Origin: Deltaproteobacteria bacterium RBG_13_61_14
GTDB taxonomy: Bacteria; RBG-13-61-14
DNA: 20,335 bases
Reading direction: 5' to 3'
NCBI GenBank assembly: GCA_001797815.1
Contig: MGQK01000129.1
Coordinates: 9,580-29,914, forward strand
The notes under the pieces were generated by a model. It searched no databases, was not told where the DNA came from, and saw only the letters and a list, made by a program, of their open reading frames with translations. Position 1 is the first letter of the stretch; each line of letters begins with the position of its first letter. Below are positions 8,706 through 20,335 of this stretch, piece after piece. The translations under genes were made by a program, and so were the position numbers.

Positions 8706-10040
8706 TTGAACATCCTGCTCATTTATCCTCGTTTAAAATACCCGGCGTTCGGCGAACTCCAGGAGCCGCTGGGAATCCTTTCCGTCGCCGCCTCCTTGCG
8801 CGCCGCCGGCTTCTTGGTCGAGCTTTGCGACCTGACCCTGGCCGGAAGCCTGGAAGCGCTCGACGCCCCGCTCTCTCGGGCCGAGGCCGTGGGCTTAAGC
8901 TCGTCCACCGCGCTCTTCGGCCGGGCCCTCATGGTGCTGGAACGCATCCGGACCCTGCGGCCGGGAATTCCCGTGGTCCTGGGCGGGCCGCACGCCACGG
9001 CTTGTCCCGAGGAAAGCCTGGCCAAGGGTTTTGACGCCCTGAGCATCGGCGAGGGCGAAGTCACCGCGAAGGAGCTTTTCGCCCGCCTGGCGGAAAAGGG
9101 AGACCCGGCCGGAATCCCGGGCGTGGCCGTGTTGCGCGAGGGCAACGTGCGGTGCGGACCCCCGCGGCCTTTTATCGCCGACCTGGATTCCCTGCCGTTC
9201 CCGGCCCGCGACCTGATTGACTACGAGGGATACAAACGCAACAACCTCATCCACATCGGGATGTTCGTCTCCCGCGGCTGCCCCTTCCGCTGCTCCTTTT
9301 GCAAGCCCATGCAGGACGTCCTCTTCGGGAAAAAAGTCCGATCCCGCAGCCCGGAAAGCGTGGTCCGGGAAATGGCCGAGGCCCAGGCCCGGATCGGCCC
9401 CCGGCCCTTCCTCTTCCGCGATGACACCCTGACCATGCTCGGGATTCCATGGTTTGAAGAGCTGGGCAGCGCCATGGCCCGAGCCGGTCTGGCCGGCTGC
9501 CACTGGTCCTGCCAATCCCGGGTGGATTTGATCACCTCCGAGCTTTTGACCGTGATGAAACAGGCCGGGTGCCAGGGCATTGCCTTTGGGGTGGAGAGCG
9601 GCTCGCAGCGGGTGCTCGACTTTTACCAGAAGAAGATCAAGGTGGACGACACCATTCGGGCGTTCGAGTTGTGCCACGAGTTCGGGATCGGGACCCATGC
9701 CTTCATGATGCTGGGCGCGCCCATCGAGACCCGGGAAGATGTGGAGGCGACCCTGGCCCTGGTCCGCCGGATTAAGCCCAACTCCATCTCCACCTCCTTC
9801 ACCACCCCGGCGCCCGGCTCCCAGCTTTACCTGGACTTGACCGCCGGCGGGCCAAGTCCCTATGCCAGCTACGAGGACGTGGATTACCTGCTGAACTCTG
9901 TGCCGCTGGCGCACCCGCACCTCTCCCGCGAAGAACTGGTGGCGGCCCAGCAGGCTTTGGTGGACCTGGTGCCCACCACTTTTCACCCGGAGGCCTTGCG
10001 CGCCCAGCGCCAGCGCTGGCAGAAGCCGCTCCGGACTTGA
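8706..10040 (+). CDS. B12-binding-type radical SAM protein
   Basis: This 444-residue protein has an N-terminal cobalamin-binding-like Rossmann domain (residues 1 to about 140: MNILLIYPRL, PLGILSVAASLRAAGF, IPVVLGGPHAT) followed by a radical SAM core. The core starts with FVSRGCPFRCSFC, in which C192, C196 and C199 form the CxxxCxxC [4Fe-4S] site, and includes SRVDLITSELL and GCQGIAFGVESGSQRVLD. The classical B12-binding DxHxxG histidine motif is not visible, so the N-terminal domain may not bind cobalamin through histidine. Such proteins modify lipids, hopanoids or cofactors; the substrate here is unknown. Translation starts at TTG (8706) with GAGG nine bases upstream. It sits between the outer-membrane protein and pentapeptide-repeat genes. 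Confidence 0.9.
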   Translation: MNILLIYPRLKYPAFGELQEPLGILSVAASLRAAGFLVELCDLTLAGSLEALDAPLSRAEAVGLSSSTALFGRALMVLERIRTLRPGIPVVLGGPHATACPEESLAKGFDALSIGEGEVTAKELFARLAEKGDPAGIPGVAVLREGNVRCGPPRPFIADLDSLPFPARDLIDYEGYKRNNLIHIGMFVSRGCPFRCSFCKPMQDVLFGKKVRSRSPESVVREMAEAQARIGPRPFLFRDDTLTMLGIPWFEELGSAMARAGLAGCHWSCQSRVDLITSELLTVMKQAGCQGIAFGVESGSQRVLDFYQKKIKVDDTIRAFELCHEFGIGTHAFMMLGAPIETREDVEATLALVRRIKPNSISTSFTTPAPGSQLYLDLTAGGPSPYASYEDVDYLLNSVPLAHPHLSREELVAAQQALVDLVPTTFHPEALRAQRQRWQKPLRT

Positions 10041-11090: not shown

Positions 11091-11864
11091 ATGGACCATG
11101 CTTTGCAGCGGCGGCTCCAGGATTGGCTCCGGGACCGGGTGGACGCGGTGGGTTTCGCGCCGGTGGACCGCTGGTCCGCGGCGCCGGAGCGACACCATCC
11201 GTCGGCGATCTGCCGGGACGCGGCCACCGTCATAGTTTTCGGCCGCGCGATGCCGCGGGGCGTGCTCGCCTCGCCCGAGTATAACCTGTATCTCCTGCAC
11301 CGGAGTTATCACAGCATTTATCCAGCATTGGACGATATCGCGCTCCGCCTGTCCAATCGCCTCGAGGCCGAGGGTTTCTTCGCGGTCCCGATCCCCTCTT
11401 ATGCGCCCCTGGTCTTCCACGGCGCCGAACCCTGGGGCATCCTCTCGCTCAAACATGCGGCGGTTAGCGCCGGGCTGGCAGCCTTGGGTCGGAGCGGCCT
11501 GGCTTACCATCCCCGCTTTGGCGCCCTGCTCCGGTTGGCCGCGGTGGTGACCAATGCCCAACTGTCCGGAGATCCGGTCCTGGAAGCGGAACCCTGTCCG
11601 CCGAAGTGCCAAGCCTGCCATCAGGCCTGTCCGGCCGGCGCGTTTGCGGAAGGCGGGTTCCAGAAGATGAAATGCCTGGCCCACACCATCCGCCACGGCA
11701 TTTATCCGCTGGCCCTGAAGGGCGAGGAAGGCCTGAAAAACCTGGAGATGATCATCAACACCGCCGGCTACAACTATTGGCTCAAGTGCGATGAATGCCT
11801 GAAAGTCTGCCCGCTCCACCGCCGACCACGCGGCCCGGCGCCGGCGGCCGAAGCCGCTGACTAA
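11091..11864 (+). CDS. QueG-like double [4Fe-4S] protein (paralogue 1)
   Basis: This 257-residue protein is related to epoxyqueuosine reductase (QueG) and similar Fe-S proteins. The N-terminal domain includes VDAVGFAPVDRW, VIVFGRAMPRGVL and ALGRSGLAYHPRFG. The C-terminal part carries cysteines C169, C173, C176 and C180 (followed by P), then C195, then C233, C236 and C240 (followed by P). This 4+1+3 arrangement is what QueG uses to hold two [4Fe-4S] clusters. It is shorter than QueG (about 380) and lacks the C-terminal HEAT-like repeats, so a tRNA-modification role is doubtful. The ribosome-binding site is weak. It ends 24 bp from the convergent tetR gene and is the smallest of four such paralogues in the window. 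Confidence 0.85.
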   Translation: MDHALQRRLQDWLRDRVDAVGFAPVDRWSAAPERHHPSAICRDAATVIVFGRAMPRGVLASPEYNLYLLHRSYHSIYPALDDIALRLSNRLEAEGFFAVPIPSYAPLVFHGAEPWGILSLKHAAVSAGLAALGRSGLAYHPRFGALLRLAAVVTNAQLSGDPVLEAEPCPPKCQACHQACPAGAFAEGGFQKMKCLAHTIRHGIYPLALKGEEGLKNLEMIINTAGYNYWLKCDECLKVCPLHRRPRGPAPAAEAAD

Positions 11865-11887
11865 ACGGACCGAGTATCCAGTTTTAG

Positions 11888-12565
11888 CTAGCGATTGGAA
11901 TCCGGGAAGATCAGGCGGGCGAGCCAGGGCGCGAAAAGGGTGAGCAGCGCGTCCTTGATCCATTGCCGGTATTCGGGGCCCTCGGGATCGAGGCCCAGGA
12001 CCTGGGCCTGGCAGGATTTGGCGCCCAGGAAGCTGATCATCAGGTTGTTGAAGCAGAGGAAGAACATCTGGATTTCAGAGGGCGGTCCCTGCAAGGGCAC
12101 CTTGTTCTCCAGAATGTGGCGGATTTCCTCCAGGTGCAGGGGAATGTATTGGTATCCGGGAATCTCGTCCAGGTTGCCGATTTGGGCCATGTTGACCAGG
12201 ATGATCCGCATCGGCTCCGGGTGCCGGAGGGTGTAGTCCAGGAGACGATCCAAGTAAAGCGAAAGCCCTTCCCGCGGCGGAAGTCGCTCCACCCCTTGAA
12301 GAAAGGACAGATGCGCCTGGTTGAACTCCTCGAAAAGGTCTCGCGCCACCGCCTCGAACAGCTTCGCCTTGGAGCCGAAGTAATAGTGGATCAAGGGCCG
12401 CTCGATCCCGGCCGCCTCGGCAATCAAGCGGGTGCTGGCCGCCTTGAACGGATACTGGGCAAACACCTGGCGCGCCGCGGCCAAGATCCGCTCCCGGGCC
12501 TTTTCGCCCTTGCCTTCTTCGGGCAAGTCATTTCGACTTGAGTTCTGAACGCGATTGGATCTCAT
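11888..12565 (-). CDS. TetR-family transcriptional regulator
   Basis: This 225-residue DNA-binding repressor has the TetR N-terminal helix-turn-helix at about residues 23-70 (ARERILAAARQVFAQ, STRLIAEAAGIERPLIHYYFGSKAKLFEAV). The variable C-terminal domain, rich in hydrophobic residues, should bind a small ligand, often an acyl-CoA or lipid in regulators next to acyl-CoA dehydrogenase genes. A GGAGGG site precedes the ATG. It is divergent from the SCP2 gene across a 247-bp gap holding promoters for both directions and a direct repeat overlapping the SCP2 -35 box. I infer that it controls the plus-strand lipid module and perhaps itself. The ligand is not known. Confidence 0.92.
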   Translation of the reverse strand: MRSNRVQNSSRNDLPEEGKGEKARERILAAARQVFAQYPFKAASTRLIAEAAGIERPLIHYYFGSKAKLFEAVARDLFEEFNQAHLSFLQGVERLPPREGLSLYLDRLLDYTLRHPEPMRIILVNMAQIGNLDEIPGYQYIPLHLEEIRHILENKVPLQGPPSEIQMFFLCFNNLMISFLGAKSCQAQVLGLDPEGPEYRQWIKDALLTLFAPWLARLIFPDSNR

Positions 12566-12594
12566 GGGAATCGCCCTCCGGTTAAGGCTTTGCT

Positions 12595-12623
12595 ATCCTA
12601 ATTCCCGCATCCCGAGCTGTCAA
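12595..12623 (-). promoter_or_regulatory. Predicted sigma-70 promoter of the tetR gene
   Basis: On the minus strand: perfect TTGACA (12623-12618), 17-bp spacer and TAGGAT (12600-12595), about 30 bp upstream of the tetR start codon. Confidence 0.65.
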
Positions 12624-12695
12624 GCTTGGGCTGGCCGGAATAGTCAAATCAAAGGCTTTGAATTTATCTCTAACTTGTTAATTTAGAATGTTTTT

Positions 12696-12735
12696 ACAGA
12701 TTGGTAAAATTTTTCTTGACAGACTGGTAAATTTT
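12696..12735 (+). promoter_or_regulatory. Direct repeats overlapping the SCP2 promoter, candidate TetR operator
   Basis: Two near-identical copies of ACAGAYTGGTAAA followed by a T-run begin at 12696 and 12719, spaced 23 bp (about two helical turns). The second copy overlaps the TTGACA box. Placement suits repression of the SCP2 gene, but TetR operators are usually palindromic, so the assignment is tentative. Confidence 0.45.
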
Positions 12736-12744
12736 CGGCAGAAT
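12716..12744 (+). promoter_or_regulatory. Predicted sigma-70 promoter of the SCP2 operon
   Basis: Perfect TTGACA (12716-12721), a 17-bp spacer and CAGAAT (12739-12744), about 70 bp upstream of the SCP2 start codon. Confidence 0.65.
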
Positions 12745-12812
12745 GGGCTTGGTTTGGCGGAAAATCTATAAGGGGTTTTCCCGGGAAAAATCTCAAAAGG
12801 GAGGATGGAAAA

Positions 12813-13385
12813 ATGGTAGAGTTTAAAGTGCCGGCAGATGTTTCGGTGGATGACTTTTTCAAAACCCATGTGCCCAACCAATTTAAAGAAAGTCTGGCCA
12901 CCGCGAACGTCTCGGCCATGGCCGGCAAAGAGTTCACGCTCCAGTTCAACATCGAGGGCAAGAAATATGCTCTGCGGATCAAGGACGGCAAAGCTCTCGA
13001 AGTGATCCCGGGCGGCCTTGATAAGGCCATGCTCACCTTGAGTCTGAGCGAGTCATTCTGGCGCGACTCGATCACCGGCAAGGTGCCCGGCGCCATGGAC
13101 CAGTTCACCGACCCCTCCCAGGCGGCGGACGCCAACCGCTACAACGCGCTGCAGAACACCAAGGGCACCCTCAAGGTGGAGTTGAAACTGGAGGACGGGA
13201 AGGTCGTGCCCCTGGCTATGACCTTTAACGGCGAGGTCGCGCCGGAAGTAACCATCAAGCTCGCCATGTCCGATTGGCTGGCCATGCAGCGCAAAGAGAC
13301 CGACGGCCAGAGCCTGTTCATGGCCGGGAAAATGCAGTTCGACGGCGACGTCTCTTTCCTCATGCAACTACAGTCCCTGGTCTAA
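12813..13385 (+). CDS. SCP2 sterol-carrier-domain lipid-binding protein
   Basis: This 190-residue cytoplasmic protein has an SCP2-type domain, a fold with a hydrophobic tunnel that binds sterols, fatty acids or acyl-CoAs. Matching segments include FTLQFNIEGKKYALRIKDGKALEVIPGG, LTLSLSESFWRDSITGKV and the later KLAMSDWLAMQRKETDG... LFMAGKMQFDGDVSFLMQL, which resembles the SCP2 end (gkik.GD..ll..L). There is no signal peptide. The linker between (about residues 95-135) is unusually long. GGGAGG precedes the ATG. It is the first gene of the module opposite tetR and likely carries or presents the lipid substrate to the acyl-CoA dehydrogenases downstream; that role is inferred from position. Confidence 0.87.
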   Translation: MVEFKVPADVSVDDFFKTHVPNQFKESLATANVSAMAGKEFTLQFNIEGKKYALRIKDGKALEVIPGGLDKAMLTLSLSESFWRDSITGKVPGAMDQFTDPSQAADANRYNALQNTKGTLKVELKLEDGKVVPLAMTFNGEVAPEVTIKLAMSDWLAMQRKETDGQSLFMAGKMQFDGDVSFLMQLQSLV

Positions 13386-13390
13386 TTCAG

Positions 13391-13431
13391 TTAATCTAAC
13401 ATCTGGGGGCAGGCCCCAAATGTTAGATTAA
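13391..13431 (+). repeat. Long hairpin between the SCP2 gene and Fe-S gene
   Basis: TTAATCTAACAT (13391-13402) pairs perfectly with ATGTTAGATTAA (13420-13431); after one C-A mismatch TGGGG pairs with CCCCA around a 5-base loop. It begins six bases after the SCP2 stop and ends 14 bases before the next start. There is no T-run, so it is more likely an mRNA-stabilising or translation-controlling structure than a simple terminator. Confidence 0.75.
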
Positions 13432-13445
13432 GTAGATTAAGAGAA

Positions 13446-14480
13446 GTGTCCTGGAATCAAGACATCGAGGAGTTTCTCCGGGAGCGGGGCGTGCTCCAGG
13501 TGGGCTTTGCCACGGTTGAGACCCTGGCCGGCGGGCCGCCGAGCGTGGACCTGAGCTACAAACTCCCCGGCGCGCGCTCGGCCATCAGCTTTGCTCTGCC
13601 TTTTAGGCGCGATGCCATCCGGGCCTTCCTGGCCAAGGAGGACCGGGTACCGCACGAGCATGACAACCTCGAAACCAACCTCCGCGCCAAGGATCTATCC
13701 TGGGAACTGGCCAAGATGCTTGAGCGCGAGGGCTTCCCCTCCAAGGGCACGGCCGCCAACCTGAAATACCGCACCGAGATCCAGGGCTGGCAGCTTACCC
13801 TGCCGCCGGACCTCAGTCACCGTTACCTCGCGGTGCGCTCGGGCGTCGGGTCCTTCGGCTGGTCCGGCAACGTGGGCATCAAGGGCTTTGGCACCGCCGT
13901 CATCCTCGGCACCTGCCTCACCACCCTGGCGCTGGAACCCACCGCGCCGGTCCCGGTCGAAGAGAGCTTTTGCGACCGGTGCAAGCTTTGCCATGCTTCC
14001 TGCCCGGTGGAGATGTTTGACAAGGAGCTGGAGGCCTCGGTTGACATCGGCGGCGTCACCTTTTCGCACGCCCGGCGTAAAAGCATCTTGCTTTGCCAGT
14101 TTTGCTGCGGCGGCTTTACCGGGTTGCATCGGTCCAGGAAATGGTCGAGTTGGTCGCCGGGCCGTTTCCGGGTGCCTGAGGACGAGAAGGAGTTGCTGAA
14201 CGAACTGCTCCGGGCTATAGCGCTTTACGCGAAGCGGCCGGTCATGCCCGGCGGCTATGAGCACAGCGCGCTCAAAGGCGCCAAGCAATACATGACCTGC
14301 GGCAACTGCCAGATCGTGTGCTGGGGCGACAAGAAAGAGACGGCCCATAACGTCAAGCTGCTCAAGACTTCCGGCTGCGTGCTGCAGGAGCCGGACGGGA
14401 GCCTCTATGCGTTGCCGCCGGAGGAAGCGGCCCGGGCTTTCGAGAAAATCGAGCCGGAGCGCAAGCAGCTTTATTGCTGA
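13446..14480 (+). CDS. QueG-like double [4Fe-4S] protein (paralogue 2)
   Basis: This 344-residue protein shares its whole architecture with the gene at 17066. The N-terminal domain has FLRERGVLQVGFA, PSVDLSYKLPGARSAISFALP and GVGSFGWSGNVG. Cluster cysteines are C176, C179, C182 and C186 (CDRCKLCHASCP), a middle CQFCC group (217-221), and C285, C288 and C292 (CGNCQIVC), the 4+1+3 pattern of two [4Fe-4S] clusters. A conserved RKWSSWSPGRF segment follows the middle cysteines and is matched by QKWTTWGRHW in the paralogue. Both lack QueG's C-terminal repeats. The start is GTG with only a weak AAGAGAA upstream. A long hairpin lies just before it. Predicted cytoplasmic redox protein; partner and substrate unknown. 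Confidence 0.85.
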   Translation: MSWNQDIEEFLRERGVLQVGFATVETLAGGPPSVDLSYKLPGARSAISFALPFRRDAIRAFLAKEDRVPHEHDNLETNLRAKDLSWELAKMLEREGFPSKGTAANLKYRTEIQGWQLTLPPDLSHRYLAVRSGVGSFGWSGNVGIKGFGTAVILGTCLTTLALEPTAPVPVEESFCDRCKLCHASCPVEMFDKELEASVDIGGVTFSHARRKSILLCQFCCGGFTGLHRSRKWSSWSPGRFRVPEDEKELLNELLRAIALYAKRPVMPGGYEHSALKGAKQYMTCGNCQIVCWGDKKETAHNVKLLKTSGCVLQEPDGSLYALPPEEAARAFEKIEPERKQLYC

Positions 14481-14540
14481 GATTGCTGAGCGAGCCGGGT
14501 GCGGCCGGCGGCGGGGGCCCCGCTCCGGACTTTTTGGCCA

Positions 14541-14570
14541 TTGGCAGACCCGAGCTGAAAATGCCATAAT
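14541..14570 (+). promoter_or_regulatory. Predicted sigma-70 promoter of the acyl-CoA dehydrogenase operon
   Basis: TTGGCA (14541-14546), an 18-bp spacer and CATAAT (14565-14570), each one base from consensus, lie 57 bp upstream of the first dehydrogenase start codon. Confidence 0.6.
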
Positions 14571-14627
14571 GTCCGCATTGCAGGTTTCTCTTCCAGACAA
14601 GATAGGGATGTAAGAAAGGAGGGTTTG

Positions 14628-15737
14628 ATGTTTTCACTGGAACTTTCAGAAGAACAAAGGATGATCCAGGACACCGCGAAAAGCTTCGCGGCCGAGCAGC
14701 TCCGGCCGCGCGCGCATGAGTGCGATGAAAAGGGCGCGCTCCCGGAGGATCTTCTGGCCTCGGCCTGGGAGCTGGGCCTGGTTTCCGCGGTGGTTCCGGA
14801 GGAGCTGGGCGGCGGGGGCATGAAGCGCTCGGCGGTGACCGGTGCGATCATGCTCGAAGAGCTGGCCTGGGGCGATCTGGCCCTGGCCCTGGCCATGGTA
14901 GCGCCGGCGCTCTTCGCTTACCCGATCCTGACCCAGGGCACGGACCAGCAAAAGAAAAAGTATCTGCCCCTGCTCTTGGAGAGCAAGCCCGCTCCGCTCA
15001 CCGCGGCGGTGATCGAGCCGGTGATCAATTTCGATCTCTCCGAGCTTACCTGCCAGGCCAAGAAGAAAGGCGCGGGTTACCTACTCTCGGGCAAGAAGTG
15101 TCTGGTGCCCATGGGCTCGACTGCGCAAAGCTTTTTGGTCTATGCCGCGGTGGACGGCAAGCCCGGGTATGAGAACGTCGGCGGCTTCATCGTCGAGCGG
15201 GGGCAGAAGGGCCTCAAAATCGGCGAGCGCGAGCGCAACATGGGCCTGGCCGCGCTTGACACCGTGGGGCTGGAGCTTGCGGAGGTGGAGGTCGGCGGCG
15301 ATGCGGTCCTGGCCGGCGGCCCGAGCTGCGACTTTGGCAAGTTGATGAGCTACTCCCGGGTGGCGCTCGGCGCGTTGGCCATCGGCGTGGCCCGGGCGGC
15401 CCAGGAGTACGCGCTCGAATACGCCAAGGTGCGGGTGGCCTTCGGCGAGCCGATCGCGCACCGGCAGGCCATCTCCTTCATGATCGCGGACGATTACATG
15501 GAGATCGAGTCCGGCCGGCTGCTCACCTGGGAGGCGGCCTTTTTGCTGGACGCGGGCAAGGACGCGTTCAAGGAGGCTTACCTGGCCAAGCTCTACACCG
15601 ACCAGGTGGTGATCAAGGTCACCGACGACGCGGTGCAGACGCTCGGCGGCCACGGCTACATCCGCGAGCATCCGGTGGAGTTGTGGCTCCGGAACGGTCG
15701 CGGTTTTACCACCTTTGACGGCTTGGCCACGGTGTAA
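14628..15737 (+). CDS. Acyl-CoA dehydrogenase family subunit without the usual catalytic Glu
   Basis: This 369-residue flavoprotein-family protein has the three acyl-CoA dehydrogenase domains. The N-terminal helices (FSLELSEEQRMIQDTAKSFA) and C-terminal part are typical, including the FAD-contacting VRVAFGEPIAHRQAISFMIAD (268-288) and LGGHGYIREHP (339-349). The middle-domain signature that normally reads AxTEPxAGSD is degenerate (AVIEPVINFD, 127-136). At the C-terminal site of the catalytic Glu the sequence is TTFDGLATV, so Asp364 replaces Glu, and the alternative isovaleryl-type Glu position reads SYSRV. AAGGAGGG precedes the ATG, which I prefer to a TTG three bases earlier. It pairs with the next gene 27 bp downstream, probably as one subunit of a heteromer. 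Confidence 0.93.
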   Translation: MFSLELSEEQRMIQDTAKSFAAEQLRPRAHECDEKGALPEDLLASAWELGLVSAVVPEELGGGGMKRSAVTGAIMLEELAWGDLALALAMVAPALFAYPILTQGTDQQKKKYLPLLLESKPAPLTAAVIEPVINFDLSELTCQAKKKGAGYLLSGKKCLVPMGSTAQSFLVYAAVDGKPGYENVGGFIVERGQKGLKIGERERNMGLAALDTVGLELAEVEVGGDAVLAGGPSCDFGKLMSYSRVALGALAIGVARAAQEYALEYAKVRVAFGEPIAHRQAISFMIADDYMEIESGRLLTWEAAFLLDAGKDAFKEAYLAKLYTDQVVIKVTDDAVQTLGGHGYIREHPVELWLRNGRGFTTFDGLATV

Positions 15738-15764
15738 GGGCCAAGAGGAATCGGAGGGACGCTG

Positions 15765-17024
15765 ATGATTAGTTTTGAAGTTCCGGCAGGAGTTGCCAAC
15801 GTCAGCAAGCTGGTGCACGGGCTGGCGATGGGTGTGATGCGGAAATGGGCCCGCTGGGCCGATGACCACGAGCACGAGCGCTGCGAGGAGTGGGTCAATA
15901 CCATGTGGAGCCTGTCCAAGGGCGGGATGATGGGGAGCATGACCGGCGGGCTGTCGCGCAAGAAAAAAGAGGACAAGCCCAAGGAAGAGGGCGAGAAAAA
16001 GAAAGAAGTCCGCTACCAGAACCTGATCATGGCCGCGGCGGTGGAGGAACTTTCCTGGGGCGACGCCGGGCTATACCTGGCCATGCCCTTCATGGGCCTG
16101 GGCGGCGCCGCGGTCGCGGCGGCCGGCACCGAGGCCCAGCGCGAGAAGTTCCTCAAACGCTTCACCACCGCGGACAAACCGGTGTGGGGAGCCATGGCCA
16201 TCACCGAGCCGGGTGCCGGCTCGGACACCGCGGCGATTTCGGCGACCGCGGAACTCGATCCCAAGACCAAGGAATGGATCTTGAACGGCGAGAAGATCTT
16301 CGTCACCCAGGGCAAGAGCTCGGTGGAAGACTCGGAGGGCTTTGTGGTGGCCTGGGCCAGCCGCGACCGCAAGGCCGGCCGGGCCGGGATCAAGAGCTTT
16401 GTGGTCGAGCACCACACCCCGGGCATGAAAGTGACCAAGGTGGAGCACAAGCTCGGCATCCGCGCCTCGGACACCGCCTCCATCGTCTTCGAGGACTGCC
16501 GGGTGCCGTATGAGAACGTGCTCGGCGACCCGGAGGTGAAGGAAGGCTTCAAGGGCGCCATGGCCACCTTTGACGCGACCCGGCCCATGGTCGCGGCTTC
16601 AGCCATCGGCATCGGCCGGGCCGCGCTCGAGCGCTGTCAGGAGCTGTATGAAAAAAACGGGGGCAAGCTCCGCTATGGAATCAACCCCAACCGGCTCACT
16701 TCGGCCGAGCGGGACCTGATGATGATGGAAAGCCAGGTCCGGGTCTCGCGGCTGCTCACCTGGAAAGCGGCCTGGATGGCGGACGCCGGGATCCATAATA
16801 ACCTGGAGGCCTCGGTCAGCAAGGCCAAGACCGGCAAGGCCATCACCTGGGTCACCAACAAGGCGGTGGAGCTTTTGGGACCGGTCGGCTACTCCAAGCA
16901 AGAGCTGTTGGAGAAGTGGCTGCGCGACGCCAAGATCAACGACATCTTCGAGGGCACCGGCCAGATCAACACCTTGGTGGTGGCGCGCCGCATTTTCGGG
17001 CTGGGGAGCAAGGAACTGAGATAG
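15765..17024 (+). CDS. Acyl-CoA dehydrogenase with catalytic Glu and unusual N-terminus
   Basis: This 419-residue acyl-CoA dehydrogenase oxidises an acyl-CoA to the enoyl-CoA. It has the canonical MAITEPGAGSD signature (144-154), KLGIRASDTASIVFEDCRVP, the LLGPVGY segment, and the catalytic-base motif DIFEGTGQIN with Glu396. In contrast, the region that normally reads RxxFGxPIxxxQ (FAD binding) is KLRYGINPNRLTSAERD and poorly conserved. The first 80 residues do not resemble the usual N-terminal helices and include a Lys/Glu-rich stretch (about 65-82). GGAGGG precedes the ATG. The conserved features missing here are present in the preceding gene product and vice versa, suggesting an obligate heteromer. 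Confidence 0.95.
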   Translation: MISFEVPAGVANVSKLVHGLAMGVMRKWARWADDHEHERCEEWVNTMWSLSKGGMMGSMTGGLSRKKKEDKPKEEGEKKKEVRYQNLIMAAAVEELSWGDAGLYLAMPFMGLGGAAVAAAGTEAQREKFLKRFTTADKPVWGAMAITEPGAGSDTAAISATAELDPKTKEWILNGEKIFVTQGKSSVEDSEGFVVAWASRDRKAGRAGIKSFVVEHHTPGMKVTKVEHKLGIRASDTASIVFEDCRVPYENVLGDPEVKEGFKGAMATFDATRPMVAASAIGIGRAALERCQELYEKNGGKLRYGINPNRLTSAERDLMMMESQVRVSRLLTWKAAWMADAGIHNNLEASVSKAKTGKAITWVTNKAVELLGPVGYSKQELLEKWLRDAKINDIFEGTGQINTLVVARRIFGLGSKELR

Positions 17025-17065
17025 CCTTCGATCTTCCTTCCCATCCCCGAAAAGGAGGGAGAAGC

Positions 17066-18397
17066 ATGCCCAGCCTGGAACAACGCATCAAAGATTTCGC
17101 CCGGGAGCAGGGCGTGGCGGTGGTGGGCGTGGCCGGGCCGGAGCGGCTGGATGGCCCGCCCTCGCTCGACCCCACTTATACCATGAAGGGCGCCCGTTCC
17201 ATCGTCTCCCTGGCCCTGCCCATGGACGTGCTCGCGATCTACGATTTCCTGGGCAAGAAATCGCCGGTGAGCCACAACCTGGACCAGTTGCGCACCAACC
17301 AGCGGGTGCATCGGATTTGCCGCCGCCTGGCCGAATACCTCCGTTCCTTGGGCCATCGCGCGCAGGAAGTGCCGCCGAATAACACCTACCGCCGCTCGCT
17401 GGACATGCTCTCCTTGCACCCGAGTTTTTCCCACCGCTTCGGCGCGATTGCCGCGGGCATCGGGGCCCAAGGGTGGTCCGGGAACATCATGACCGAAGAA
17501 TACGGGGCCGCGGTTTACCTGGGCACCGTGGTCACCGAGGCGGTGCTCGCGAGTGACCCGGCCTTGTCTCCCCGCTATTTCGTGGACAACTATTGCACGA
17601 AGTGCAAGCTCTGCGAGAAGGTGTGCGCCTCCGGGATGTTCGTGGCCGAGGAGGAAGAGCAGGTGCTGCTCAACGGCGAGCTCCACCCCCGGGGCAAGCG
17701 CCGCAACCTCGACCTGTGCAATTTTTCCTGTTTTGGACTGCACGCGCTTTCCCGCGACCAGAAGTGGACCACCTGGGGCCGGCATTGGATCCCGGAATGG
17801 ATCGGCGACCAACAGGACCCCGCCCGGAAAAACAAGGTCCGTGCCGCGGCTCTGCGCGCGGGTTCCCGGACCGGGGACTCGGCGCCGCGTTATGATCTGA
17901 TTCGAAACGCCGGTTCCATCCTTTTTCCCCAGGAGGTGCTGGAATCCCAGGTGCCCCAGGTCAAGGATCTGCCGGAAGATGAACTGGAGCGCAACGCCAT
18001 CTTGAAAAACCTGATCGAGAAAAATGTGGGGATTCGGGGGCTTCGCGACCCCAACGTGCTGACCTGCGGCCAGTGCGCCCTGGTCTGCGGGCCCAACCTG
18101 AAAGAGACCGCGGACCGCTTTCACCTGCTGGCCGAATCCGGGCTGGTCGTGCCCGGTCCGGAGGGAAGGATGGTGCGGGTGGACAGCTACGAAGCGGCCG
18201 TCGCGATCAAGAAAAAATATCCCCAGCGGGTCAGCCGGCAAGAAATGAGGGCCGACGCCAAGGCCTTCGGCAAGCTCTGGACCAAACTCTATTTCGGGAT
18301 CGAGCCGAAATCCATCCTCCAAGGCTGGCTCTATGCCCGCAAGCTGAAAAAAATGGTGCGAGAGCAATCATGCCTGGACCCGAAGCCGGAACGATGA
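17066..18397 (+). CDS. QueG-like double [4Fe-4S] protein (paralogue 3)
   Basis: This 443-residue paralogue of the 13446 gene has an N-terminal domain with FAREQGVAVVGVAGPERL, PSLDPTYTMKGARSIVSLALPM and IGAQGWSGNIMTEE. Cluster cysteines are C177, C180, C183 and C187 (CTKCKLCEKVC), a middle C218/C222 pair, and C334, C337 and C341 (CGQCALVC). The fourth cysteine is followed by Ala, not Pro. About 80 extra residues (250-325) lie between the middle and final cysteines, and the tail is longer and basic (LYARKLKKMVREQS). AAGGAGGGA precedes the ATG. It is 41 bp downstream of the second dehydrogenase and its stop overlaps the sulfatase start (ATGA). It likely passes electrons to or from the dehydrogenase; this is inferred from gene order. 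Confidence 0.86.
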   Translation: MPSLEQRIKDFAREQGVAVVGVAGPERLDGPPSLDPTYTMKGARSIVSLALPMDVLAIYDFLGKKSPVSHNLDQLRTNQRVHRICRRLAEYLRSLGHRAQEVPPNNTYRRSLDMLSLHPSFSHRFGAIAAGIGAQGWSGNIMTEEYGAAVYLGTVVTEAVLASDPALSPRYFVDNYCTKCKLCEKVCASGMFVAEEEEQVLLNGELHPRGKRRNLDLCNFSCFGLHALSRDQKWTTWGRHWIPEWIGDQQDPARKNKVRAAALRAGSRTGDSAPRYDLIRNAGSILFPQEVLESQVPQVKDLPEDELERNAILKNLIEKNVGIRGLRDPNVLTCGQCALVCGPNLKETADRFHLLAESGLVVPGPEGRMVRVDSYEAAVAIKKKYPQRVSRQEMRADAKAFGKLWTKLYFGIEPKSILQGWLYARKLKKMVREQSCLDPKPER

Positions 18398-19848
18398 GAA
18401 GACGCGAATTCATCAAGACTTCGGCCACGGCCTTGGCCGGCGCCGTGTTGGGCGGCAAAATCATTTCCGCGGCGGAAAAGCGGCCCAATATCCTCCTCAT
18501 CCTGGTGGACCAGTTGCGCCAGCCGCGCTGGACCCCGGCGGGGGTCACGCCCAACCTTGACCGCCTGGCCCAGACCGGGGTCTCGTTCACTCAGCACTTC
18601 GTGAGCGCGGTGCCTTGCTCGCCCTCGCGCGCCTGCATGATCACCGGCACTTACACCACCCAAAATCACATGCACAGCAACTGCGACTTCCAGGTGGGCG
18701 AGCGCCAGCCCAGCCTGGACCCCAGGATCCCCACCCTCGGCCACATCTTCCGCGACGCCGGCTTTCGCACTCCCTACCGGGGCAAGTGGCACCTGACCCG
18801 CAAAGCCGACCGCGACCCCCGGGACCCGCTCCGCGCTTACGGCTTCGAAGGCTGGAAGCCGCCCGAGGCGCCTTTCGGCGGCGCTCCTTACAACGGCGCG
18901 GTCATGGATCCGGTCTATGCCCGCGAGGCTAAAGCCTGGCTGAAAGACCCGAACCACCACCGCCAGCCCTGGCTCCTGGTCTGCTCGCTGGTCAATCCCC
19001 ACGACATCTGCGAGTGGCCCCGCTACTACCCGCAGACCCGGCTCCGGCCCGTCCATACCGACACGCTGCCCGACAACTGGCGCGACGACCTCTCGACCAA
19101 GCCCGGGTGCCAGCGCGAGTTCCAGGAACGTTACCAGAAGCTGGCCGGATTTATGGACCCCGGTGACGAGAAAGCCTGGCGCCGCTACCTGGACTATTAC
19201 CTCCATTGCCAGCGGGACGTGGACGAAAACGTGGGCGACGTGCTCCGGGCGCTCGAGCAATCCGGCCAGCGCGAGAACACGATCGTGGTCTTCACCTCCG
19301 ACCACGGCGAAATGGCCGGCTCGCACGGGCTTCGCACCAAGGGCTGTTTCGCCTACGAAGAGGTCATGAACGTGCCCCTGATTTTCTCCTGGCCCGGTCA
19401 TCTCCCGGCCGGCGCCGTGACCGGCGCTTTTGCCTCCAACGTGGACGTGGCGCCCACCCTGGCCGGTCTGGCCGGGATCACCCGCCTGCCTTACCTGGCC
19501 GGCCGCGATCTCTCGCCGGTGCTGCAAGACCCGGCCCGCGGCTCGGTGCAGGATGAGATTCTTTATCACCAGGGCTGGGAGCTGGAGGTGGGACTGAGCA
19601 AGCAGAGTCGCACTTCCGCCTTCTCCCACCCGGCGCACGTCCGCTGCCTGCGCGACCGGGAATGGAAGTATGCCTATTACTTCAGCCCGGACCACGACCA
19701 GGTGGAGCACGAGCTTTACCACCTGAAGGACGATCCCCTGGAGATGACCAACCTGGGGAATGATCCGGGCTACGAGCCCAAGCGGCGGGAGATGTTCGCG
19801 CGGCTGATGGAGCGGGAGCAAAAGCTAATCGAGGAGTTTGAGGCCTAA
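18394..19848 (+). CDS. Tat-exported sulfatase (FGly type)
   Basis: This 484-residue enzyme of the alkaline phosphatase/sulfatase superfamily hydrolyses a sulfate (or phosphate) ester. The N-terminus MRRREFIKTSATALAGAVLGG is a twin-arginine signal, so it should be exported folded to the periplasm. PNILLILVDQLR carries metal ligands D39 and Q40, and PCSPSRACMITGTY contains the C-x-P-S-R motif whose Cys75 is converted to formylglycine. TSDHGEMAGSHGL is the second metal site. The sulfatase core looks complete. I chose the ATG overlapping the preceding TGA; another in-frame ATG lies 24 bases upstream. The natural substrate is unknown. A maturation enzyme (anSME or FGE) is required but not present in the window. 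The stop codon TAA lies within the 123-bp repeat. Confidence 0.93.
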   Translation: MRRREFIKTSATALAGAVLGGKIISAAEKRPNILLILVDQLRQPRWTPAGVTPNLDRLAQTGVSFTQHFVSAVPCSPSRACMITGTYTTQNHMHSNCDFQVGERQPSLDPRIPTLGHIFRDAGFRTPYRGKWHLTRKADRDPRDPLRAYGFEGWKPPEAPFGGAPYNGAVMDPVYAREAKAWLKDPNHHRQPWLLVCSLVNPHDICEWPRYYPQTRLRPVHTDTLPDNWRDDLSTKPGCQREFQERYQKLAGFMDPGDEKAWRRYLDYYLHCQRDVDENVGDVLRALEQSGQRENTIVVFTSDHGEMAGSHGLRTKGCFAYEEVMNVPLIFSWPGHLPAGAVTGAFASNVDVAPTLAGLAGITRLPYLAGRDLSPVLQDPARGSVQDEILYHQGWELEVGLSKQSRTSAFSHPAHVRCLRDREWKYAYYFSPDHDQVEHELYHLKDDPLEMTNLGNDPGYEPKRREMFARLMEREQKLIEEFEA

Positions 19849-19968
19849 GTCCTTCGATTCATAAGTTCGATAACGAACTTATTTACTCAGGACTTAGTGC
19901 TGAGTGAGCAGATAAGCCTTTGCGAGTAAATTAATACGTGATTCTATTTGCGAATCGAAGCACTAAGT
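19846..19968 (+). repeat. 123-bp structured repeat, copy B
   Basis: This is the inverted partner of 7807-7929 (64/65 and 23/24 matches in the two arms, unrelated 34-bp centre). Here it starts with the TAA stop of the sulfatase gene and ends inside the GTG start of the next gene. Possible stems include ATAAGTTCG / CGAACTTAT (9 bp), TAAGTCC / GGACTTA (left end with interior), ACTTAGTGCT / AGCACTAAGT (interior with right end) and ACTCAG / CTGAGT; several exclude each other. Confidence 0.9.
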
Positions 19969-20335
19969 GGAAATCAACGCGGCCGCGATCAAGGACCTGA
20001 TCCTGGCGGAAGGGATTGACCTGGTCGGCATCGCGGAAGCGCGCGAGCTGATCCTGGCCCATCCGCCCCGGCCGGCGACCGCGCTCCTGCCTTCGGCCCA
20101 AAGCGTGATCGTGATGGCCGTGGCCCACAGCCTGGGCGCGACCTTTGCCCCGGACCTCCGGCTCTGGACCCGCAACAAGATGCAGACCTCCCGGCTGCTC
20201 GACCAGGTGGCGGAAAAAGTCGGCCGCTTGCTCGAGCGTCAAGGCTGCCTCTCCCTGCCCGTCTCCGCGGACAAGCCGGTGGAGATCCACAAGCTCGACC
20301 CGGCCACCGGCAAGCCATTTTTTCACACCAAGGTC
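19967..20335 (+). CDS. QueG-like Fe-S protein N-terminus (paralogue 4), cut by window edge
   Basis: An open frame of 123 codons reaches the window end. It begins (V/M)EINAAAIKDLILAEGIDLVGIAEARELI and continues with LLPSAQSVIVMAVAHSLG, which matches the N-terminal domain pattern of QueG-like proteins seen in the three paralogues upstream (GVxxVGxA ... ARSxxSxALP). The iron-sulfur cysteines would lie beyond the window. TAA directly precedes the GTG in frame, so translation cannot start further upstream; no good ribosome-binding site is visible because the 123-bp repeat occupies that position. The assignment rests on the N-terminal similarity only. Confidence 0.7.
   Translation, partial: MEINAAAIKDLILAEGIDLVGIAEARELILAHPPRPATALLPSAQSVIVMAVAHSLGATFAPDLRLWTRNKMQTSRLLDQVAEKVGRLLERQGCLSLPVSADKPVEIHKLDPATGKPFFHTKV

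Follow-up and report, generated by a model that had tools for sequence, protein, structure and literature searches.

To our knowledge, only two chemistries are firmly established for the class III B12 enzymes, the reduction of an epoxide in tRNA, carried out by QueG, and the dehalogenation catalysed by the reductive dehalogenases (RdhA). The authors of the QueG structure considered that further class III families may exist, without a recognisable motif (PMC4646009). A candidate for such a family is found in a stretch of 20,335 nucleotides (the window) from Deltaproteobacteria bacterium RBG_13_61_14 (genome G000, contig C129, positions 9580-29914), which carries four QueG-like genes on its forward strand: Q1 (11091..11864, 257 aa), Q2 (13446..14480, 344 aa), Q3 (17066..18397, 443 aa with a C-terminal extension) and Q4 (19967..20335). 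The last is cut by the window end after its N-terminal 123 aa; its full frame in the genome is 287 aa, including a masked stretch. A sequence-only reading of the window had proposed four QueG-superfamily genes within 9.3 kb, and the open reading frames and profile matches, albeit below the curated cut-offs, bear this out. Our best reading places Q1-Q4 among the class III B12 reductases as a third branch, as yet uncurated, since the profiles of Q2 and Q3 match QueG and RdhA and yet phylogeny sets the four proteins apart from both, as do the motifs from QueG. The genome (4.74 Mb, 132 contigs, 95 % complete) belongs to a little-sampled phylum, and below the domain level relatives were found for it only in its own order, namely the genomes G001 and G002. 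The genomes used are draft metagenome-assembled genomes (MAGs) with short contigs, in which several QueG-like stretches read as N, and both the order and the clade of Q2 and Q3 count few member genomes.

The double [4Fe-4S] module is readily recognised. In Q1 the cysteines follow the pattern C-x3-C-x2-C-x3-C, then a single one, then C-x2-C-x3-C; Q2 and Q3 have C-x2-C-x2-C-x3-C, two invariant cysteines (217 and 221 in Q2) and C-x2-C-x3-C, and the layout of Q4 is likewise 4+1+3. The cluster cysteines are invariant within the Q2/Q3 clade. With the QueG model TIGR00276 (cut-off 200 bits) Q1, Q2 and Q3 score 40.8, 32 and 34.9 bits and an orthologue of Q4, 70-74 % identical to it, 50.9 bits; with the RdhA model TIGR02486 (cut-off 160.35 bits) the values are 26.8-30 bits for Q1-Q3 and 49.6 bits for the Q4 orthologue. 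Among the QueG, reductive dehalogenase and 4Fe-4S models of NCBIfam and Pfam that match, one reaches its cut-off, Fer4 in the Q4 orthologue (21.2 versus 21.1 bits). In profile-profile comparison, the Q2/Q3 clade profile aligns by hhalign with QueG (probability 99.83, E 4e-29) and with RdhA (probability 99.74, E 5e-26) over both the cobalamin and the [4Fe-4S] regions, matches as strong as that of the control pair, QueG against RdhA (E 2e-27). Homology to the cobalamin domain combined with a 4+1+3 double [4Fe-4S] module is what characterises the class III cobalamin/[4Fe-4S] superfamily, and on this basis Q1-Q4 would be expected to bind a base-off corrinoid and two [4Fe-4S] clusters.

Structure prediction for Q2, which has a cobalamin-domain-like N-terminal half and two [4Fe-4S] motifs, points in the same direction. 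A first AlphaFold model built on five alignment rows was too poor for use (predicted local distance difference test, pLDDT, 46.9), and a second one built on eight rows (pLDDT 59.9, predicted template-modelling score 0.62) is usable for the N-terminal domain only, where it is best. This second model matches QueG (5d0a, Z 15.4), NpRdhA (4ras, Z 14.8) and PceA (Z 13.3); since its alignment included one QueG and two RdhA-like rows, the fold and sequence matches do not count as independent evidence. Weaker matches are obtained with the B12 chaperones MMACHC (Z 9.4) and CblD (Z 8.8), with nitroreductases lower still. They raise the question whether Q1-Q4 could serve another corrinoid enzyme as chaperones or reductive activators, in the manner of MMACHC or RACo. 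In G040 a QueG-like gene has an MTTB-type methyltransferase two genes away, and in Peptoclostridium another has a homocysteine methyltransferase nearby (L079:1325-2512 and L096:4932-5699), which hints at corrinoid links. However, Q2, Q3 and Q4 have no corrinoid methyltransferase beside them, several copies share one cluster with a sterol/lipid-carrier (SCP2) gene, an acyl-CoA ligase and acyl-CoA dehydrogenases, and the QueG and RdhA fold matches lie far above those with the chaperones, so that a role in corrinoid handling appears quite improbable.

That the four proteins were not QueG had also been anticipated by the sequence-only reading, and phylogeny strengthens this view. In a maximum-likelihood tree of 61 rows, the 19 QueG and the six RdhA rows each form a 100/100 clan, and Q1-Q3 and the close orthologues of Q4 from G001 and G002, through which Q4 was placed, fall outside both. 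A 100/100 clade that includes genes of two other phyla contains Q2 and Q3 next to each other, and the Q4 orthologues group elsewhere. The motifs DYH and VD[ST] (for the roles of the QueG active-site residues, see PMC4646009) are present in 19/19 QueG rows and in no other row, hence neither in Q1-Q3 nor in the close Q4 orthologues; at the position of QueG's LE[RK], most members of the uncharacterised groups have S-[HL]-[RK]. The absence of the QueG C-terminal repeats, which the earlier reading had stressed, is real but not diagnostic, since two bona fide QueG proteins (306 and 308 aa) are also short. Moreover, no QueG above the 200-bit cut-off was found in the window genome, which encodes QueA and QueH; judged by this gene content, queuosine is completed by QueH instead of QueG. 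A QueG function of Q1-Q4 was thus rejected, and the idea that one of them is a divergent QueG reducing epoxyqueuosine in tRNA, for which a superfamily match can be cited, is contradicted to the point of being scarcely credible. RdhA identity was likewise rejected, on the scores below cut-off and on the RdhA clan, which excludes Q1-Q3 and the Q4 orthologues.

The family to which they belong is broad. Among 60 genomes compared, QueG above cut-off occurs in 22, and eight genomes (G000, G001, G002, G008, G026, G034, G049 and G059) have 4-9 QueG-like matches each, nearly all below cut-off; a search of viral contigs found no member. In three genomes, proteins of 771-799 aa contain two tandem QueG-like modules (L080:1994-4327, L081:1113-3428, L082:948-3347). 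G034 has three Q2-type genes in tandem (L029:1-3135), one of which is without a cluster cysteine (CDDWGLC). In one MAG, what appears to be a truncated gene encodes an N-terminal piece of 53 residues with 72 % identity to Q3 (L023:7812-8294); the same MAG also has DUF1302, DUF1329 and a TetR protein 40 % identical to that of the window.

As the sequence-only reading had noted, two of the four genes flank a pair of acyl-CoA dehydrogenase (ACAD) genes, ACAD1 (14625..15737) and ACAD2 (15765..17024), both on the + strand between Q2 and Q3. Their defects are complementary. At the position of Glu376 of medium-chain acyl-CoA dehydrogenase (MCAD), ACAD1 reads FDGL, with Asp for the catalytic Glu, and ACAD2 reads FEGT, with the Glu present; ACAD1 has a complete N-domain and lacks the C-terminal tail, while in ACAD2 the N-domain is unmatched over its initial ~60 residues, where a Lys/Glu-rich segment is found instead. 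As an adjacent pair in which only one subunit has the catalytic Glu, ACAD1 and ACAD2 probably form a heteromer; the alpha2beta2 complex with FAD at the heterodimer interface that marks heteromeric ACADs may also apply to them.

What the QueG-like proteins might do for these enzymes can be read in more than one way. The sequence-only reading suggested that they may be dedicated electron-transfer or reductase partners for acyl-CoA metabolism, and drew support from the lack of etfAB in the window. In a stricter form of this proposal, Q2 and Q3 would replace electron-transfer flavoprotein (ETF) as partners of ACAD1/ACAD2, using only their two [4Fe-4S] clusters. The argument from etfAB fails: the etfAB genes lie outside the window and three ETF-alpha genes serve the 39 ACADs of the genome, so that their absence here is uninformative. 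Other observations are compatible with the proposal. Apart from the flanking of the ACAD pair and the loss of the catalytic Tyr, an ACAD lies within ~4 kb of Q3 in 3/4 loci, all from related lineages (the window; G001, where the order is SCP2-Q3-hydrolase-ACAD; and a Lake Pavin MAG, at ~3 kb), and in G026 a Q4-type gene directly precedes an ACAD. The fourth Q3 locus, in G002, has no ACAD and instead sulfatases, DUF2804 and a GltD-like gene, whose flavoprotein product could be counted in favour of electron transfer. Downstream of this Q3, a QueG-like protein with a Tat signal lies between two sulfatases (L021:6872-7903). Against ETF replacement, the three lineages have different ACAD family members near Q3 (27-36 % identity), so that no fixed ACAD partner of Q3 is seen, some relatives are without ACADs altogether, and the entire cobalamin-type domain has been kept. 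Since the full cofactor scaffold of QueG and RdhA is retained, a reductase with catalytic activity is the likelier reading, and a role in electron transfer only is less likely; ETF replacement as such we consider unlikely.

The link with ACADs also has to be seen against their abundance. In six genomes with 165 ACADs, an ACAD is found within 5 kb of 6/48 QueG-like genes, which form 3 clusters, where 3.6 genes are expected at random (no correction for contig ends), so that overall enrichment is lacking; this and the other neighbourhood statistics rest on small samples and are partly post hoc. Across genomes, an ACAD neighbourhood recurs only at Q3, in related lineages, and is seen once at a Q4-type gene; for the family as a whole it is close to chance. 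The suggested partnership with acyl-CoA metabolism is thus supported in part, with a reductase favoured. One may ask whether the neighbourhood is incidental, a broad multi-copy QueG-like family acting on varied unrelated substrates and meeting ACADs because they are so dense in the genome. The 5-9 matches per genome in several unrelated lineages would fit, as would the near-random count and the variety of neighbours (hrcA-grpE-dnaK, MTTB, patatin, a tRNA synthetase). On the other hand, ACAD1, ACAD2, Q3 and the following sulfatase gene are tightly spaced (27, 41 and -22 bp), G001 has a run of SCP2, Q3, hydrolase and ACAD, and SCP2 adjoins QueG-like genes more often than expected by chance, which together render an incidental neighbourhood rather doubtful. 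Chance clustering of the four genes themselves can be excluded, since the 4.74-Mb genome has ~9 QueG-like genes and four lie within 9.3 kb. A recent tandem array was likewise ruled out: Q1, Q2/Q3 and Q4 belong to different clades, and Q2 and Q3 are only ~40 % identical and are found on separate contigs in two related genomes.

SCP2 is in fact a better-supported partner than ACAD. An SCP2 gene (12813..13385, + strand; 190 aa, PF02036, E 1.6e-16) lies directly upstream of Q2 in the window and of Q3 in G001, and the two SCP2 proteins are 67 % identical. At the density of SCP2 domains observed (22 in 24.9 Mb), ~0.17 QueG-like genes would be expected to have one within 2 kb, and two have. In addition, Priestia megaterium and Nostoc carry on plasmids a fusion of SCP2 with a QueG-like domain of a different clade (L048:5875-7218, L091:7109-8341); these hosts stand outside the set of anaerobe MAGs. 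An acyl-CoA ligase gene is flanked by Q2 and Q4 in both G001 and G002.

The remaining features of the stretch bear on its regulation and transcription. A TetR-family regulator gene (11888..12565, - strand; PF00440, E 2.4e-16) is divergent from SCP2, and two 16-bp copies of TTKACAGAYTGGTAAA, of the palindrome type TTTAC-N6-GTAAA, are found 5' of SCP2 (12693-12708 and 12716-12731, + strand). The second copy overlaps a TTGACA promoter-like hexamer, and 0.2 matches with up to 3 mismatches are expected by chance. These are probably TetR operators, through which the regulator would act on SCP2; no such copies were found upstream of SCP2 in G001. Q1 precedes the divergent TetR gene and follows a pentapeptide-repeat gene at a distance of 13 bp, and thus falls outside the ACAD transcription unit. 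Shortly upstream of Q1, the window also encodes a B12-binding radical SAM protein (HpnJ/BchE-like, 8706-10040). SCP2 and Q2 are separated by 60 bp containing a strong GC-rich hairpin without a T run (13386-13445; AATCTAACAT..TGGGG/CCCCA..ATGTTAGATT), and terminator-like and promoter-like sites precede ACAD1, so that several transcription units are possible across the stretch. Q3 overlaps by 22 bp a gene for a Tat-exported type I sulfatase with the formylglycine motif CSPSR (18376..19848, + strand; PF00884, E 3.9e-51), and a sulfatase 63 % identical to it is found 5 kb from Q3 in G002.

The explanation that we favour, and hold only tentatively, is that Q1-Q4 form an uncharacterised class III branch with a corrinoid and two [4Fe-4S] clusters, of which Q2-Q4 reduce a lipid-like substrate carried by SCP2, with the ACAD heteromer in a shared pathway. 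In the 12.8-20.8 kb cluster, the substrate, probably CoA-activated, would be delivered to Q2-Q4 by SCP2. Low-potential electrons may enter Q2 and Q3 at the outer [4Fe-4S] cluster and pass via the inner cluster to the corrinoid, whose Co(I) would power either a reductive elimination on the substrate or the reduction of a double bond or ring in it. The ACAD1/ACAD2 heteromer may desaturate this compound or an adjacent intermediate of the pathway and hand its electrons to an ordinary ETF encoded elsewhere, and the sulfatase perhaps acts in the same pathway. Several observations weigh against such a scheme. In 11/13 Q2/Q3 members, Q2 among them, Asn stands where QueG and RdhA share a Tyr; corrinoid binding is deduced from homology; the Q2 model is of moderate pLDDT and drew on QueG and RdhA-like rows; co-transcription is uncertain in view of the SCP2-Q2 hairpin and the sites before ACAD1; and, besides the lack of overall ACAD enrichment, relatives in other phyla have no ACAD, SCP2 or ligase neighbours, Q2-type genes in two of these phyla adjoining hrcA-grpE-dnaK, narGH or patatin. 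The wider proposition, a third functional class beside QueG and RdhA that reduces SCP2-carried substrates of the lipid or acyl-CoA type and has expanded to 5-9 copies per genome in several uncultured lineages, is conceivable, and we advance it with still more reserve.

The role of these proteins had been called poorly described, and this holds for the curated models searched as well as for the open-licence full-text literature, in which the terms tried led to no paper on the branch. It can now be approached through the S-[HL]-[RK] signature, the separate clades, the SCP2 fusions and an operon-like context of CoA-ester enzymes. The name "epoxyqueuosine reductase", when proteins of the Q1-Q4 type receive it by sequence similarity, may mislead, since queuosine synthesis may not be their role.

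Among known systems, the ACAD pair recalls the steroid ACAD heteromers ChsE4/5 and Scd1AB (PMC8399759), whose adjacent genes likewise provide the catalytic Glu in one subunit only, a likeness of architecture and not of compared steroid-ACAD sequences. The plasmid-encoded SCP2 fusion proteins of Priestia megaterium and Nostoc (WP_098399765.1, WP_256875308.1) tie a QueG-like domain to SCP2, and in Priestia a TetR gene lies upstream as in the window; unlike the window genes, they are single proteins of a distinct clade, and the flanking ~6-7 kb read to each side contain no ACAD. RdhA (PDB 4ras, 4ur3, 8q4h) shares the cofactor-binding architecture, matches the Q2 model with Z 13-15 and has the Tyr column in common with Q1, whereas Q1-Q4 score 27-50 against 160 bits, form no part of its clan, have no Tat signal and, in Q2/Q3, carry Asn for Tyr. 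QueG (PDB 5d6s, 5d0a) has the same succession of an N-terminal cobalamin-type, nitroreductase-like domain and a 4+1+3 double [4Fe-4S] module; Q1-Q4 depart from it in being without its two motifs and C-terminal repeats, in their scores of 30-51 against 200 bits and in their place outside its clan.

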